Below are positions 10,450-62,990 of a stretch of 64,000 nucleotides of DNA, piece by piece. The notes under the pieces are model-generated. The model was not told the origin of the DNA. It ran no database searches and was given only the letters and a program-made list of their open reading frames with translations. The stretch is from the NCBI GenBank assembly GCA_036375715.1, contig DASVBS010000065.1, positions 1 through 64,000 on the forward strand, read 5' to 3'. The translations under genes were made by a program, and so were the position numbers. The stretch is from Longimicrobiaceae bacterium. GTDB taxonomy: Bacteria; Gemmatimonadota; Gemmatimonadetes; Longimicrobiales; Longimicrobiaceae. Every line of letters begins with the position of its first letter. Position 1 is the first letter of the stretch.

Positions 10450-10488
10450 AAAAAACCCGCGCCTGGAGCGTTCCCAGGCGCGGGTTTT
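10450..10488. terminator. Bidirectional intrinsic terminator between the CDC48-like gene and ssrA
   Basis: A perfect 11-bp stem, CCCGCGCCTGG (10456-10466) with CCAGGCGCGGG (10474-10484), is preceded by six A and followed by TTTT. It can therefore stop both the plus-strand ATPase transcript and the minus-strand tmRNA transcript, whose 3' end lies 4 nt away. Confidence 0.88.
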
Positions 10489-10491
10489 CAG

Positions 10492-10865
10492 TGGAGGTGA
10501 GGGGAGTCGAACCCCTGTCCGCCTATCGATCCCTCCCGGTATCTACGTGCGTATCTCGCTGTTCCTTTCTCCTCGCCCGTTCGTCGGCCAGCGAGCGGCC
10601 TCTCACGAGCCAGCCATGTAAGTCTCACTCATCCGGTCATGGCCCCGGAATGAGCCAGGCTCGAATTTGCGACGCCTGCCGCCCCGACTCGAGCGGGCCT
10701 GAACGACAGACGGGTGCGAAGGAACCGCCTATGGGTTCGACTTACGCAGCCAGAGCGAAGTTATCGTTCGCAGTTACTGATAGATTCCGCTTATTTTACG
10801 AGGCACTCGGAGACCTCGGCACGCAACCAGGACTTCACAATACGCGTCGAAGCCAGGTCACCCCC
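10492..10865 (-). ncRNA. ssrA: Transfer-messenger RNA (tmRNA), one-piece
   Basis: A 374-nt tmRNA for trans-translation rescue of stalled ribosomes. The 5' end GGGGGTGACCTGGCTTCGAC (from 10865) is the conserved tmRNA opening. The 3' end carries the T-arm GGGGTTCGACTCCCC and the acceptor strand CACCTCC, which pairs with GGGGGTG at the 5' end. The discriminator A is at 10492 and CCA is not encoded. The tag reading frame at 10742-10771 is GCG AAC GAT AAC TTC GCT CTG GCT GCG TAA, giving ANDNFALAA. A consensus promoter at 10887-10915 starts transcription about 15 nt before the mature 5' end. Identification is firm from both ends and the tag. Confidence 0.96.
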
Positions 10866-24492: not shown

Positions 24493-24968
24493 CGCTCGTC
24501 CGCTCCAGCGAGTCGGGGTATCAGGTCCGCCATCTCGAGCGCTGCGAGGGCCGCGTCCCAGCCCTTGTTCCCCGCCTTGGTTCCCGCCCGCTCCAGCGCC
24601 TGCTCGATCGTGTCGGTGGTCAGCACCCCGAAGATGACTGGCAGGCCGCTCTCCAGGCCGACGCTGGCCACCCCGTTCGCCACACCCCCGGCAACGTAGT
24701 CGAAATGCGGCGTCGATCCCCGTATCACCGCTCCGAGTGCGATCAGGGCGCTGAAGCGTCCCGAGCGGACGAGCGCGCGCAGCGCCACAGGGATCTCCCA
24801 CGCGCCGGGTACCCACACCGCCTCGATCCGGTCTTCGGGAACACCATGCCGGATCAGGCAGTCGTGCGCCCCCTCCAGCAGGCGTCGCGTGATGCTCTCG
24901 TTGAACCGGCTGACGACGATCCCGAATCTCCCGTCACCCGCCTGAAGCCTGCCGATGTGCTCGATCAT
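24489..24968 (-). CDS. ribH: 6,7-dimethyl-8-ribityllumazine synthase
   Basis: A 159-residue lumazine synthase, the penultimate step of riboflavin synthesis, forming icosahedral or pentameric shells. Motifs: [50 protein letters not shown] (His for acid/base chemistry) and [21 protein letters not shown]. Start chosen at the ATG 24966-24968, whose spacing to the RFGIV core equals that of B. subtilis RibH; an ATG 9 nt upstream with a better AGGCGA site is possible. It overlaps ribBA by about 35 nt. Confidence 0.94.
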
Positions 24969-26238
24969 CGTCCGCATTCGCCTGTCGAGGGTCGCGCGCG
25001 GCCGCAGTGCCGCTCGCAATCTCCATCGCGTCCCCGATGGGGAGCAGATGGCCCAGCTTTTCACGCTTGGTGGAGAGATAGCTCACGTTGTGCGGGTTGG
25101 GCACCGCGCGAATCGGCACCTGCTCCACTACCGTCAGGCCGTACCCCTCCAGGCCGACGATCTTCTTGGGATTGTTGGTCAGGATCCGGATGGACGACAG
25201 TCCGAGGTCGATCAGGATCTGCGCGCCGATGCCGTAGTCACGCAGGTCCGCTCGGAATCCGAGCGCCTCGTTGGCCTGCACCGTGTCGAGCCCTTCGTCC
25301 TGCAGCGCATACGCTTTGAGCTTGTGGACGAGCCCGATTCCCCGCCCTTCCTGGCGCAGGTAGACGATCGCCCCGGCGCCCTCCGCCGCGATCATCTGCA
25401 TCGCCGCGTCGAGCTGCTCTCCGCAGTCACAGCGCAGGGAGTGGAAGACGTCGCCGGTCAGACACTCGGAGTGCATGCGCACCAGCACGTTTTCGCGGCC
25501 GGCGATCTCCCCCTTGATCAGCGCGACGTGCTCGAACTGGTCCACGTCGTTCCGATAGGCAACGATCTTCCATTCTCCGTGAGGAGTGGGAATGGTGGCC
25601 TCCGCCTCGCGGTGAACCAGCCGTTCGCGCGCCAGGCGGTAGGCGACCACCTGTGCGACGGTGATGAACTTGAGGCCGTGGGTCCGGGCGAAGACTTCCA
25701 GTTCGGGCCGGCGCGCCATGGATCCGTCTTCGTTCAGGATCTCGCAGATCACCCCCGCAGGAGGGAAACCGGCCATGCGGGCGAGATCGACCGAAGCCTC
25801 GGTCTGGCCGACCCGTCGCAGCACGCCGCCGGGACGCGCCCGCAGCGGGAAGACATGCCCCGGGCGACGCAGGTCCGACGGTTTGGTGTTGGGATCGACA
25901 CAGACCTGGATGGTGCGCGCGCGGTCGGCTGCGCTGATCCCGGTGGTGACCCCGAAGCGCGCGCTCGCATCGACCGAGACGGTGAAGGCGGTCTGCTGCG
26001 CCTCGGTGTTCACGTCCGTCATGGGACGGAGGTCCAGCTCGTCCGCCCGCTCCGGCGTGAGCGCCAGACAGATCAGCCCCCGACCATGCGTGGCCATGAA
26101 GTTGATGATCTCCGGGGTCACGGCCGCCGCCGCACAGACGAGGTCGCCCTCGTTCTCCCGGTCCTCGTCGTCGGCGACGATGACGATGCGCCCGGCCCGG
26201 ATATCCTCGATGGCGGCTTCTATGGTGTCGAAGGACAT
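24934..26238 (-). CDS. ribBA: Bifunctional 3,4-dihydroxy-2-butanone-4-phosphate synthase / GTP cyclohydrolase II
   Basis: A 434-residue fusion making both riboflavin precursors. Residues 1-about 205 are the RibB domain ([50 protein letters not shown]). Residues about 210-405 are the RibA domain, with the zinc site [20 protein letters not shown] and the catalytic [10 protein letters not shown]. The C-terminal 30 residues are low-complexity and overlap the ribH start. The ATG at 26236-26238 has no Shine-Dalgarno; the upstream side is the heptanucleotide repeat element. Confidence 0.96.
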
Positions 26239-26254
26239 AAGATACTTTTGAGAA

Positions 26255-26414
26255 AGAAGTTAGAAGCTAGAAGCTAGAATGGGGTTCGCCAACATCGAGC
26301 GTTCCGGCGCTATCCTGTCTGGACCCCGACTCGACCGGCCTGGCGACTCCCAACTTCCGGCTCCTGGCTCCTGGCTTCCAACCTCTATTTCTAGCTTCTA
26401 GCTTCTAGCTTCTC
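26255..26414. repeat. Heptanucleotide inverted-array element between ribBA and ribE
   Basis: The left arm (26255-26279) consists of 7-nt units of the form TAGAAGC. The right arm (26389-26413) is its reverse complement in 24 of 25 positions, with units GCTTCTA. The arms flank a 109-bp spacer. The right side continues inward in phase as about nine drifting heptads from 26352 (AACTTCC, GGCTCCT, GGCTCCT, GGCTTCC, AACCTCT, then the GCTTCTA units). It fills almost the entire ribBA-ribE gap. It resembles cyanobacterial STRR heptamer arrays in style, not in sequence. Confidence 0.75.
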
Positions 26415-26416
26415 AG

Positions 26417-27061
26417 CTAATACCCCCATCCTCGCAACAGATCCTCCGCCCCGGCGGAGCGCTCGCGGGCAGGGCGGCCGAGGAGCTGACGGACGTACTT
26501 CCCGATGAGGTCGCCTTCCAGATTCACGCGATCGCCCGGCTGAAGATCGGAGAGGGCCGTGTGTTCCCATGTATAAGGGATGATCGACAGCCCCACCACG
26601 CCCCGCTCCGGTAGATCGTTGACGGTCAGACTCACCCCGTTCACGGCGATCGAACCGTGCAGCACCGTCAGTTCCACGACCTCGTCCGGCACCACCACGT
26701 CGATCAGCACCAGTTCGCCGAGCGGCGTGACGGAGCGCACCGTTCCCACCCCGTCCACGTGCCCCTGAACCAGATGTCCCCCGAGTCGGTCTCCGAGCCG
26801 CAGCGCCCGCTCGAGGTTGACCCGCCGTCCGGGCTCGTACTCGCCCAGCGTGGTGCGCTCCAGCGTCGTGGCCACCGCCTGAACCTCGAAGCCGTCGCGC
26901 GCCAGCGCTGTAACCGTAAGGCAGACGCCGTCCACCGCAACGCTGTCCCCCAGGGCCATGCCTTCGAGCACGGCGGACGCCTGCACCTGGAAGGCGCGCC
27001 CATTCTCGAGGGGACGGGGATTGCGAATGTGGCCGACTTCTTCAACCAGTCCGGTGAACAT
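26417..27061 (-). CDS. ribE: Riboflavin synthase, alpha subunit
   Basis: A 214-residue riboflavin synthase dismutating two lumazines to riboflavin. It shows the internal duplication of two barrel domains: the N-terminal MFTGLVEEVG with SVAVDGVCLTV and GGHLVQGHVDGVG, and the second repeat with SIAVNGVSLTV and IPYTWEHTAL. The length and motif order are standard. The ATG at 27059-27061 is 1 nt after the ribD stop, so it is coupled to ribD. The stop is followed almost at once by the heptamer repeat element that separates it from ribBA. Confidence 0.95.
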   Translation of the reverse strand: MFTGLVEEVGHIRNPRPLENGRAFQVQASAVLEGMALGDSVAVDGVCLTVTALARDGFEVQAVATTLERTTLGEYEPGRRVNLERALRLGDRLGGHLVQGHVDGVGTVRSVTPLGELVLIDVVVPDEVVELTVLHGSIAVNGVSLTVNDLPERGVVGLSIIPYTWEHTALSDLQPGDRVNLEGDLIGKYVRQLLGRPARERSAGAEDLLRGWGY

Positions 27062-57554: not shown

Positions 57555-58829
57555 ATGGCTGAGGCAGTGGCATTCTATCCCCAGGTTATCCGCATTCGTC
57601 ACCCGATCGAACTGCCAGGCCAGATGACTGCCAGTCCATCCGCCACCGCCGAGTATTTCTCTTCCTCCGACGAGCGCGACCTGAGGGTGCGGTCGCTCGA
57701 GCTTTTCAAGATCCCGCCACGCTGGCTCTTTCTCAAACTCACCACGGAAGGGGGGCTGGTCGGCTGGGGCGAGCCGGTGGTCGAGGGGAAAGCAGATACG
57801 GTGCACGCCGCGGTCCTGGAGATGGCGGACCTGATCATCGGCAAGTCCGCCGCCCGCATCGAGGACCTGTGGCAGACGCTCTACCGGGGCGGATTCTACC
57901 GCGGCGGGCCGATCCTGATGAGCGCGATCGCCGGCATCGACCAGGCGCTGTGGGACATCCGAGCGCGTGCGCTCGGGGTGCCCGTCCACGACCTGTTGGG
58001 GGGAGCGGTGCGCGAGCGCATGCGGGTCTACGGGTGGATCGGCGGCGATCGGCCCGAGAGCGCGGCCGAGGCCGCTCTGCGCCGGGCGGAGGCTGGCTAC
58101 CGCGCCGTGAAGATGAACGCCTGCCCCGAGATGGAATGGATCGACTCGCCCCGCGCCGTTGAAGGGGTCATCGATCGGATGGCCGCCGTGCGCGACGCGG
58201 TTGGCCCCGACTTCGGGATCGGCGTGGACTTCCACGGACGGGTCCACCGAGGGATGGCGAAGGTGCTGCTGCGCGAGCTGGAGTCTTTCCGTCCCATGTT
58301 CGTGGAAGAGATCGTGCTCCCCGAGAACAACGATTCGCTGGCGGCGTTGCAGGGTTACTCGAGCATCCCTATCGCCACCGGCGAGCGGATGTTCTCTCGC
58401 TGGGATTTCAAGGGCGTGCTCGAGGCAGGGGTAGTGGACATCGTTCAGCCCGATGTGAGCCACGCGGGCGGCATCTCCGAAGTGCGTCGGATTGCCGCCA
58501 TGGCCGAGGCGTACGACGTGGCGCTCGCGCCGCACTGTCCGCTTGGACCGATCGCCTTCGCAGCCGCGCTGCAGGTCGACTTCGCCTCCATCAACGCCAT
58601 CATCCAGGAGACGAGCCTGGGGATTCACTACAACGAGGGGGCAGACCTGCTCGACTATCTCGTCTCGCCGGAGGTCTTCGCGGTGCGCGACGGCTGGGTG
58701 GAGCGGCCGACCGGCCCGGGCCTGGGGATCGAGATCGACGAGGCAAGGGTGCGCGAGATGGCGAAGATCGGACACCGGTGGCGCAACCCCATCTGGCGCA
58801 CCGCCGACGGCGCCATCACCGAATGGTGA
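57555..58829 (+). CDS. Mandelate racemase/enolase-superfamily sugar acid dehydratase (galactonate dehydratase-like)
   Basis: A 424-residue enolase-superfamily enzyme, closest in motif pattern to D-galactonate dehydratase (DgoD): LFKIPPRWLFLKLTTEGG, VGWGEPVVEGKADTV, YRAVKMNACPEM, the metal ligands in GVDFHGRVH, FVEEIVLPEN and IATGERMFSRWDF, then LAPHCPLGPIAFAAALQVD with the catalytic His and ETSLGIHYNEGADLLDYL. It has about 45 extra N-terminal residues compared with DgoD; a GTG at 57687 would remove them but lacks a spaced ribosome-binding site. It probably removes water from a hexonate or related aldonic acid to give a 2-keto-3-deoxy acid. Substrate not certain. Confidence 0.82.
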   Translation: MAEAVAFYPQVIRIRHPIELPGQMTASPSATAEYFSSSDERDLRVRSLELFKIPPRWLFLKLTTEGGLVGWGEPVVEGKADTVHAAVLEMADLIIGKSAARIEDLWQTLYRGGFYRGGPILMSAIAGIDQALWDIRARALGVPVHDLLGGAVRERMRVYGWIGGDRPESAAEAALRRAEAGYRAVKMNACPEMEWIDSPRAVEGVIDRMAAVRDAVGPDFGIGVDFHGRVHRGMAKVLLRELESFRPMFVEEIVLPENNDSLAALQGYSSIPIATGERMFSRWDFKGVLEAGVVDIVQPDVSHAGGISEVRRIAAMAEAYDVALAPHCPLGPIAFAAALQVDFASINAIIQETSLGIHYNEGADLLDYLVSPEVFAVRDGWVERPTGPGLGIEIDEARVREMAKIGHRWRNPIWRTADGAITEW

Positions 58830-59929
58830 ACGAGGCTTCCCGCCCTGAAGGCGGTCCGCGGCCGCTGCGTGAACGGGAGGCGGATCCGCTGGGCTCGGTG
58901 TTCAACCTGGAGGATCTGGAGGTGGCGGCCCGGGGCCGCCTCTCGCGGATGGCGTACGAGTACGTCAGCTGCGGCGCGGCGGACGAGATCACCCTCGGCT
59001 GGAACCGTTCGGCCTTCAACACCATCCGCCTGCGCCCGCGCGTGCTGGAGGACGTGCGGCAGATCGATCTGCGCATGTCGCTGCTGGGGCGGACGCTTCC
59101 CTTCCCGATCCTGTTGGCCCCCACTGCGTACCACCGGGTGATCCACCCCGAGGGGGAGATTGCCACCGCCCGCGGAGCCGGTGCCGCGGGCGCCACCTGG
59201 GTGGTGAGCACCGGCAGCAACACGTCCATCGAGGAGATCGCCGCGGCGGCCACCGCTCCCCTCTGGTTCCAGCTCTACCTGCAGAGTGACCACGGGGCCT
59301 CCGAGGCTCTCGTGCAGCGGGTCGAAGCGGCCGGCGTGGACGCCCTCGTGCTCACCGTGGACACCCCCGTGATCGGTGTCCGAGACCGGCAGACGCGCAG
59401 CCGTTTCCGGCTGCCGCCCGGGGTCTCCACCCCTCACCTCGACGACCTGAACCGCGGACGCCGCGAGATCCTCACGCCCGAACGAGTCGTGGCCACCTGG
59501 GAGGACGTGCGCTGGCTGAAGGCGACCGCGCGCGTCCCGCTCCTGCTCAAAGGCATCCTTACCGCCGCCGACGCGAAGCGCGCCGTGTCCGAGGGGGTCG
59601 ATGGGATCATCGTGTCGAACCATGGCGGGCGGAACCTCGATACCCTTCCCGCCACCATCGACGCACTCCGCGAGGTGAGCGCCGCCGTCGACGGCCGCGT
59701 CCCCGTGTTGATGGACGGAGGCGTGCGGCGCGGCACCGACGTGGTCAAGGCGCTCGCGCTGGGGGCCGCCGCCGTGCTCATCGGCCGGCCCTACCTCTAC
59801 GGCCTGGCAGTCGCCGGAGCCACGGGTGTCGAGCGCGCTGTGCGAATACTCGTGCGCGAACTCGAGCTGGCCCTCGCGCTGTGCGGACGGGCGTCGGTGG
59901 GCGAGGTGGATGCGGGAGTGGTGTGGTAG
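58823..59929 (+). CDS. FMN-dependent alpha-hydroxy acid oxidase/dehydrogenase
   Basis: A 368-residue LldD/glycolate-oxidase family protein. It shows AYEYVSCGAADEITLGWNR, LLAPTAYHRVIHPEGEIA, the YLQSDHGASEALVQRVEAAG barrel portion, KGILTAADAK, the catalytic IVSNHGGRNLDTLPA (His) and the FMN-phosphate loop VLMDGGVRRGTDVVKALALGA. It oxidises a 2-hydroxy acid to a 2-keto acid with oxygen or quinone as acceptor. The ATG is inside the end of the dehydratase gene (7-nt overlap, ATGGTGA), so translation is coupled and the two enzymes are probably in one pathway. The substrate is unknown. Confidence 0.85.
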   Translation: MVNEASRPEGGPRPLREREADPLGSVFNLEDLEVAARGRLSRMAYEYVSCGAADEITLGWNRSAFNTIRLRPRVLEDVRQIDLRMSLLGRTLPFPILLAPTAYHRVIHPEGEIATARGAGAAGATWVVSTGSNTSIEEIAAAATAPLWFQLYLQSDHGASEALVQRVEAAGVDALVLTVDTPVIGVRDRQTRSRFRLPPGVSTPHLDDLNRGRREILTPERVVATWEDVRWLKATARVPLLLKGILTAADAKRAVSEGVDGIIVSNHGGRNLDTLPATIDALREVSAAVDGRVPVLMDGGVRRGTDVVKALALGAAAVLIGRPYLYGLAVAGATGVERAVRILVRELELALALCGRASVGEVDAGVVW

Positions 59930-59936
59930 AGGGGGT

Positions 59937-60138
59937 TAGCCGCTAGCCGCTATCCGCTGTCCGTTCGCACCAAATTACGAATTACGAATTACGAATTGTG
60001 CCGGCGTTCCCGCCGGATTGTGCTGGATATTGCCCTACGGAAGAATTGAGGGTCCCGGACGGCGGAAGGCGCCTCACCGCCCCACAGCGTAAGCTGAAGG
60101 GTTCTACGTCCGTAATTCGTAATTCGTAATTCGTATTT
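59937..60138. repeat. Second heptanucleotide inverted-array element
   Basis: Immediately after the oxidase stop come degenerate heptads TAGCCGC, TAGCCGC, TATCCGC, TGTCCGT (59937-59964). Next comes the left arm of ATTACGA units (about 59972-59997) and its reverse complement at 60114-60135, a perfect 22-bp match. The inner spacer is 116 bp. The layout equals that of the element at 26255-26414 (25-bp arms, 109-bp spacer) though the units differ. Nothing else was seen in the 59930-60186 gap. Confidence 0.78.
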
Positions 60139-60186
60139 CCGGCCAAAGGCCAATGCGGACAACGGTCAACGAATCACCGGCCGTTC

Positions 60187-60768
60187 TCAATCGATCGCGA
60201 TCAGATACCCGGAGAAGTGATTCAGATAGAATTCCACCGCCTCACCGGCCTCGCGTACTAGGCTCACCTCGCTGACGGCGGCGCGGTTGGAATCCCAATC
60301 GACCGACTCGGGGTCGGAGAAGTAGCCGCGCGCGCTCGCGCGGACGCTGGTGCCTTCCGCAACGGTTCCTGCCAGTGACTGCTCTGCGGTCACCACGCGG
60401 GCGAAATGCGTCCCGTGCGGCTCGAAGGAATAGGCGACGAGCGTCCCCGCGTGGGCGCGAACGGAGATCTCGGTCGGCCGCTGGAGCGCATTCGCCGGCA
60501 CGGTAAGGCGCAGCCCCGCGGCCGGTAGCTCGATCACACCGCCCGAGCTTCCGATCACCTTCGACACGACGAGGTCCTCGGAGAGGGGAACCGAGCGCTC
60601 CAGTACCCGCACGGTATGCTGCACCGGAGAGAGAGACAGGTACGGACCGCCAACGCGCACATCCAGGGCGGAGCGGACCTCGAGCGGGGAGCCGCCATCG
60701 GCGCAGGCGGATAGCGAGACGACGAGGGTGCCGACCAGCGCGAACAGGCGGAGCGACGTGCGGATCAT
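60187..60768 (-). CDS. Lipoprotein with ZU5-like domain
   Basis: A 193-residue lipoprotein. The signal peptide ends in the lipobox VSLSAC (Cys22). Residues about 72-115 match the ZU5 pattern: VIGSSGGVIELPAAGLRLTV, then PANALQRPTEISVRAHAG. The rest is beta-rich and may be a UPA-like continuation. It is anchored in a membrane, role unknown. A TGGAGG site precedes the ATG. The leader has two overlapping small inverted repeats at 60800-60828 (CCGGGT/ACCCGG and CCGGAT/ATCCGG) that are mutually exclusive. Confidence 0.72.
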   Translation of the reverse strand: MIRTSLRLFALVGTLVVSLSACADGGSPLEVRSALDVRVGGPYLSLSPVQHTVRVLERSVPLSEDLVVSKVIGSSGGVIELPAAGLRLTVPANALQRPTEISVRAHAGTLVAYSFEPHGTHFARVVTAEQSLAGTVAEGTSVRASARGYFSDPESVDWDSNRAAVSEVSLVREAGEAVEFYLNHFSGYLIAID

Positions 60769-62916: not shown

Positions 62917-62926
62917 GGGCCTGTAG
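62753..62926 (+). CDS. Candidate small protein of unknown function (weak)
   Basis: A 57-residue reading frame beginning with ATG after GGAGACCCC. It has high third-position GC in the first 20 codons, a basic run (RPKRGRGK, about 22-29) and an FFELPYVEE segment. It ends at a TAG inside the tRNA gene and contains the tRNA promoter, so it is more likely to be a chance or decayed frame than a gene. No homology is recognised. Confidence 0.2.
   Translation: MTQENGIDQPARGLTLGRISRPKRGRGKPALIAPGGSTIFFELPYVEESAPGRATGL
62843..62871 (+). promoter_or_regulatory. Promoter of the tRNA-Ile(CAU) gene
   Basis: TTGATC (62843-62848) and TATCTT (62866-62871) are separated by 17 bp. The predicted transcript starts near 62878, about 40 nt before the mature tRNA 5' end. 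Confidence 0.6.
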
Positions 62927-62990
62927 CTCAGTCGGTCAGAGCACGCGACTCATAATCGCTAGGTCGTGGGTTCGAGTCCCACCAGGCCCA
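62917..62990 (+). tRNA. ileX: tRNA-Ile with CAT anticodon (lysidine-modified type)
   Basis: A complete 74-nt cloverleaf: acceptor GGGCCTG/CAGGCCC, D-arm GCTC/GAGC, anticodon loop CTCATAA, T-arm GTGGG-TTCGAGT-CCCAC, discriminator A at 62990 and no encoded CCA. Anticodon CAU could be Met or Ile2. The C4-G69 and C5-G68 pairs are the TilS recognition pairs of E. coli tRNA-Ile2, and the GCGA-loop-TCGC anticodon stem also fits that isoacceptor, so I call it Ile(CAU). Position 27-43 is a C-U mismatch. It is not an initiator because the GGG/CCC anticodon-stem pairs are absent. Confidence 0.85.

Follow-up and report, generated by a model that had tools for sequence, protein, structure and literature searches.

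Two intergenic repeats that look alike but are built of different heptamers lie in the same 64,000-nucleotide stretch of DNA from a Longimicrobiaceae bacterium (GCA_036375715.1, contig DASVBS010000065.1, positions 1 to 64,000; hereafter the window). This raises the question of whether such elements form a family defined only by architecture, perhaps generated by a common replication or repair mechanism, as the original prediction proposed, or whether the units themselves point to a shared agent. To address this, we re-examined both elements and then followed their units through the rest of the genome, through relatives, and into other phyla. The repeats proved to be as they had been described. 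The proposed interpretation was only partly supported: the two elements do belong to one architectural family with different units, and the cause is probably shared, but neither a constant spacer length nor a purely architectural, sequence-blind replication or repair mechanism was supported.

Structure of the two elements

The second element consists of a left arm, (AATTACG)3.6 at 59973-59997 (+), a spacer of 113 bp at 59998-60110, and a right arm at 60111-60135 (-) that carries (AATTACG)3.6 inverted. The perfect 22-bp match between 59976-59997 and 60114-60135, with 116 bp between, was exact. The spacer contains no gene and is not shared as a whole with other elements. Outside the arms, an outer left array at 59937-59965 (+), described beforehand as TAGCCGC-like heptads, belongs to a third unit family, TTATCCG/TATCCGC (TAGCCGC TAGCCGC TATCCGC TGTCCGT). 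A degenerate inverted partner of this array, GCGGACAACGGTCAACG, can be read at 60155-60171 (-), so that the site looks like two nested layers, although this partner was read by eye and was not tested statistically. The stop codon of an FMN-dependent dehydrogenase gene (58778-59929, +) lies 7 nt before the outer array, and a convergent gene of unknown function with a weak ZU5 match follows at 60187-60768 (-). The first element, at 26261-26413, has a 19-bp perfect match with 109 bp between. It comprises a left arm of GAAGCTA units (26261-26279, +), an inner right array of inverted GGAGCCA units (26359-26376, -), and a right arm of inverted GAAGCTA units (26389-26413, -). It lies between ribBA (DHBP synthase and GTP cyclohydrolase II; 24934-26238, -) and ribE (riboflavin synthase, lumazine-binding domains; 26417-27061, -), whose stop codon is 3 nt from the right arm.

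Within the window, these two elements hold all five period-7 runs and the only perfect inverted repeats of 16 bp or more within 600 bp. The genome was sampled by stretches, and in 464 kb taken without regard to repeats, exact runs with at least 11 matches numbered 36 at period 7 and 9 at period 8, against at most 3 at every other period from 1 to 13. Furthermore, the exact three-unit array (ATTACGA x3) occurred 166 times in the 4.37-Mb genome, while the same pattern read backwards occurred 0 times. The units fell into few families: AATTACG (with AATTTTG and other AATTNNN variants), GAAGCTA/GGAGCCA, TTATCCG/TATCCGC, and octamers of the type GGTGACAA. The octamer family (GGTGACAA/GGGTGAAC/GGGTGACG) showed the same inward pairs and stop-codon placement in sampled stretches of this genome (L039:6158-6218, L043:674-846, L055:883-1008, and L056:7592-7771).

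Clustering of spacer length near 110 bp had been named in advance as a test of the family. In fact, 37 AATTACG pairs had spacers ranging from 13 to 285 bp (median 111, SD 54), and a search for a common spacer sequence in this genome recovered only short shared modules. Specifically, the spacers at L033:18308-18572, L065:391-677, and L067:10158-10383 share inverted modules such as CACAGAGG...CCTCTGCG and TCCTGAGCGAAGCGAAGGATC, as if layers of different hairpins were nested. The perfect arm match is likewise not evidence of pairwise copying here; it arises because both arms are built of the same canonical unit. In this genome, the two arms of an element were no more alike than arms of different elements with the same unit (AATT family, P = 0.34; 8-mers, P = 0.43; GAAGCTA, P = 0.03).

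Orientation, placement, and distribution

AATTACG pairs always pointed inward in this genome, in Chitinophaga solisilvae, and in the other phyla sampled (270 inward, 0 outward), and the other unit families of this genome each keep one inward orientation too. The outer end was phase-locked at AATT while the inner end varied. We considered whether this phase lock might only reflect unit variation, but it held when boundaries were redrawn to tolerate variant units. Elements were found close to stop codons, at a median of 12 nt in this genome, 2 nt in C. solisilvae, and 9 nt in a mixed set, against about 80 nt to start codons, with genes called by a simple codon-usage method. In these three sets, divergent intergenic regions held 1 of 107 elements. 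In C. solisilvae, 27 of 62 arms complete the stop codon themselves (T + AA). A covariance-model search against Rfam returned nothing at the elements, only a tmRNA and a tRNA in 128 kb. The window (10452-10488, 10489-10865, and 62917-62990) holds a tmRNA gene on the minus strand with a 15-bp perfect inverted repeat beside it, and a tRNA gene.

Among 395 genomes of the phylum sample, only this one carried ATTACGA x3. In contrast, the same inverted pair occurred in records titled Chitinophaga, Prevotellaceae, Ignavibacteria, Planctomycetota, Anaerolineae, Pyrinomonadaceae, Endomicrobium, Akkermansia, Desulfocapsaceae, Pseudanabaena, Parcubacteria, and others. Viral contigs gave 0 hits for either orientation. 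In Chitinophaga, counts ran from 1564 array hits in C. solisilvae to zero in 52 of 79 species. At alignable orthologous sites, congeners lacked the heptamer element, and at one such site a congener had a different hairpin. Elements of C. solisilvae are near-perfect palindromes of about 62-64 bp per arm, in which arms within an element differed by 4.5% and arms between elements by 16.4%. There was no preference for G-U over A-C mismatches, even where only one strand is transcribed (22 against 22), which points to homogenization at the DNA level rather than selection on RNA.

Whether units change at one locus had also been put forward beforehand as a test, and here the outcome was positive. At the 3' end of ribE, the site of the first element, four relatives carry arrays of other units (GCACTAG, AAGTGCT, AGTGCGTT, and ACTGGGC), which fits recurrent invasion of one gene end by different families. 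Most relatives, however, lack arrays at ribE.

Association with S23p genes

A search of plasmids with a C. solisilvae element hit two cyanobacterial plasmids, in Nostoc and Dolichospermum, where inward arms of another AATTNNN unit (AATTCGT) bracket a gene for a "four helix bundle protein." This family is PF05635 (23S_rRNA_IVP or S23p). Two PF05635 genes were found in the genome of the window and confirmed by Pfam, one of which matches the solved Xanthomonas campestris protein XCC0516 (2GSC, E = 3.4e-19). The gene on contig C76 (L298) lies between (AATTACG)4 and (CGTAATT)4. The gene on contig C31 (L280) has GAAGCCA/GGAGCCA arms and lies between GGAGCCAGAAGCCAGGAGCC and its inverted counterpart, with its reading frame ending inside the array. 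These are the unit families of the two window elements, which themselves carry no gene. Similarly, the C. solisilvae gene (L286) has the same arms as the gene-less hairpins.

The association is general. Strong inverted flanks were found for 43 of 50 PF05635 genes against 4 of 301 small control genes (Fisher P = 5e-43), using thresholds that were chosen after seeing data, and one of the four controls (L339:8118-8484) overlaps a PF05635 gene. A non-PF05635 small gene of C. solisilvae (L239:1986-2565) also has very strong inverted AATTACG flanks but may just lie between two hairpins. Among 35 proteins below 70% identity, arm k-mers tracked protein identity across phyla (Mantel r = 0.41, P = 2e-4). 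AATTNNN arms go with one subfamily from this genome, Chitinophaga, Flavobacterium, and cyanobacteria, whereas AGTGC-type arms go with another from Chloroflexota records and relatives of this genome. Contrary to a sequence-blind mechanism, the units are not arbitrary: a few families dominate, each of the two window families is also the arm of one S23p gene in the same genome, and arm sequence follows protein subfamily across phyla. The presence of gene and arrays correlated across 79 Chitinophaga species (15/3/7/54, P = 2e-8), although species share ancestry, so the P value is optimistic. In one relative (G013), the arm units of two of its PF05635 genes are also the two commonest heptamers in a 340-kb sample, part of which was chosen around the genes, with gene-less pairs among them.

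The correspondence was not complete in these draft genomes and sampled stretches. Two of the four unit families here have no identified gene: no PF05635 gene was found inside octamer or TTATCCG arms in the stretches of this genome that were examined. Pseudanabaena (genome G065) and three Chitinophaga (G090, G091, and G139) have arrays but no detected PF05635 gene, and G101 has AATTACG arrays but only a TAGCTTT-armed gene. No S23p remnants were found in gene-less AATTACG spacers. In six Chitinophaga, the S23p gene sits at one orthologous locus, so it is not itself mobile there; RAYTs behave likewise while REPINs spread (PMC3116915).

How the elements may arise and spread

The explanation we favor, with moderate confidence, is that the window elements are gene-less, hairpin-forming satellites of a minimal genetic element made of inward tandem heptamer arms around an S23p gene. 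In this view, each unit family has its own protein lineage, the C76 gene going with elements like 59973-60135 and the C31 gene with elements like 26261-26413. Our data demonstrate that arms bracket the genes, that the unit goes with the protein subfamily, that gene and repeats co-occur, that gene-less copies far outnumber gene-bearing ones, that satellites are absent from orthologous sites in congeners, and that elements have inward arms, a phase-locked outer end, and a position close to stop codons. What we infer is that the S23p protein, a ring of five four-helix bundles in its solved relative, binds the arm arrays and mobilizes satellites in trans, as RAYTs are thought to do for REPINs. It would perhaps act with a host nuclease or polymerase, because no catalytic activity is known for the family. 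S23p is the best candidate, not yet proven, for spreading the hairpins across many bacterial phyla; no movement was observed, and the catalytic step is unknown. Array length would then change by 7-nt slippage, and placement just after stop codons would be either target choice or what selection tolerates. Spacers in this genome are mostly unrelated, unlike copies of one satellite.

The separate pieces of this picture are published. In the REPIN/RAYT system (PMC3116915, PMC8049555), inverted doublets form extragenic hairpins of very uneven copy number, each type lies beside its own single-copy gene, and the gene stays at one locus while hairpins spread. Our elements are likewise many-copy inverted pairs in extragenic space, but their arms are period-7 arrays rather than REP palindromes, and the gene is PF05635 rather than a Y1 transposase. 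The 23S rRNA intervening sequence (IVS) of Coxiella has an S23p gene between terminal inverted repeats, a 28-bp terminal stem, and tandem heptamers (GACAGAT) of strain-variable number, and is sporadic and thought to be horizontally acquired (PMC4990558). The C76 and C31 copies share the gene, the terminal inverted repeats, and the heptamers. However, the IVS lies in rRNA genes and is cut out by RNase III, whereas the copies here are intergenic, the window elements lying between protein genes, and are accompanied by many gene-less copies; excision by RNase III was not assayed. Heptamer repeats of Xanthomonas (GGGAATC) and Nostoc (GGGGA[C/T]T) include 70-75 inverted convergent pairs in Xanthomonas, with a strong bias to sit right after stop codons (PMC4692102). 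These are G-rich and were studied for quadruplexes, and we found no link made there to S23p, although X. campestris is also the source of 2GSC. Cyanobacterial tandem heptanucleotides (Calothrix, cited in PMC4692102) and TAACTGA repeats (PMC4679880) are likewise intergenic and scattered over distant phyla, but TAACTGA sets are almost all direct repeats upstream of start codons. PF05635 also resembles the DGR accessory protein Avd (PMC10053308). We found no paper joining genome-wide heptamer hairpins to S23p, in a search that did not extend to subscription papers or preprints, so that priority is uncertain.

Heptamers have been noted as the commonest 5-11-nt tandem repeats in most genomes surveyed (as quoted in PMC4679880) without an accepted cause, and the S23p proteins of rRNA intervening sequences have no known function. 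Linking the two gives both a testable partner, since each protein subfamily predicts a DNA or RNA code and each repeat family predicts a protein. If mobilization in trans were confirmed, it would be a REPIN-like system built on a protein family not known as a transposase. A bolder possibility, which we put forward only tentatively, is that S23p/IVP proteins define a new class of mobile element. A ring-forming protein of roughly 120 residues without known catalytic activity would recognize its own tandem 7- or 8-nt arm code and, with host enzymes, spread gene-less hairpins to gene 3' ends. This class would account for much of the heptamer repeat excess long noted in bacterial genomes and for the rRNA intervening sequences that encode S23p.

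Two alternatives appear unlikely, and about equally so. First, the arrays could be functional 3'-end structures (terminators, mRNA stabilizers, or insulators between genes) kept by selection on each gene end, with units changing over time and S23p genes merely tending to acquire them. The stop-codon placement in every set, the near absence between divergent genes, the different arrays at ribE, and the different hairpin at an orthologous site in a congener are consistent with this idea. However, the mismatches gave no sign of selection on an RNA stem, most relatives lack arrays at ribE, and the idea explains neither unit-protein matching nor the inverted flanks of PF05635 genes. Second, the arrays could be passive products of polymerase slippage and of template switching between hairpin arms, with 7 nt reflecting the polymerase footprint and the link with PF05635 a by-product. 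In favor are the heptamer excess in many genomes together with the polymerase-slippage proposal quoted in PMC4679880, the arm homogenization in C. solisilvae, and variable unit numbers. Against it, the fixed inward orientation and phase-locked outer ends are not expected from slippage alone, the same few units recur in distant phyla, the unit tracks protein subfamily, and array counts differ sharply among Chitinophaga congeners.

Least likely is that these are ordinary MITEs or REPINs of a conventional transposase (Y1/RAYT or DDE) with PF05635 genes as passengers: despite the inverted hairpin architecture, high and uneven copy number, extragenic sites, and terminal inverted repeats shared with gene-bearing copies in the same genome, Y1_Tnp (PF01797) was absent from this genome, C. 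solisilvae, C. rupis, and a Prevotellaceae carrier and reverse transcriptase (RVT_1) was absent from this genome and most carriers tested (other transposase families were not screened), and there was no target-site duplication, with direct flank identity at chance for 2-9 bp in this genome and C. solisilvae.

Some elements departed from a simple inverted pair. In this genome, L062:16107-16204 is a right-hand array of about 12 units without a left partner, preceded by two AACCCGT units. In Prevotellaceae stretches L098, L150, and L170, AATTACG arms enclose GTAGGGGC...GCCCCTAC hairpins, another short palindrome type.
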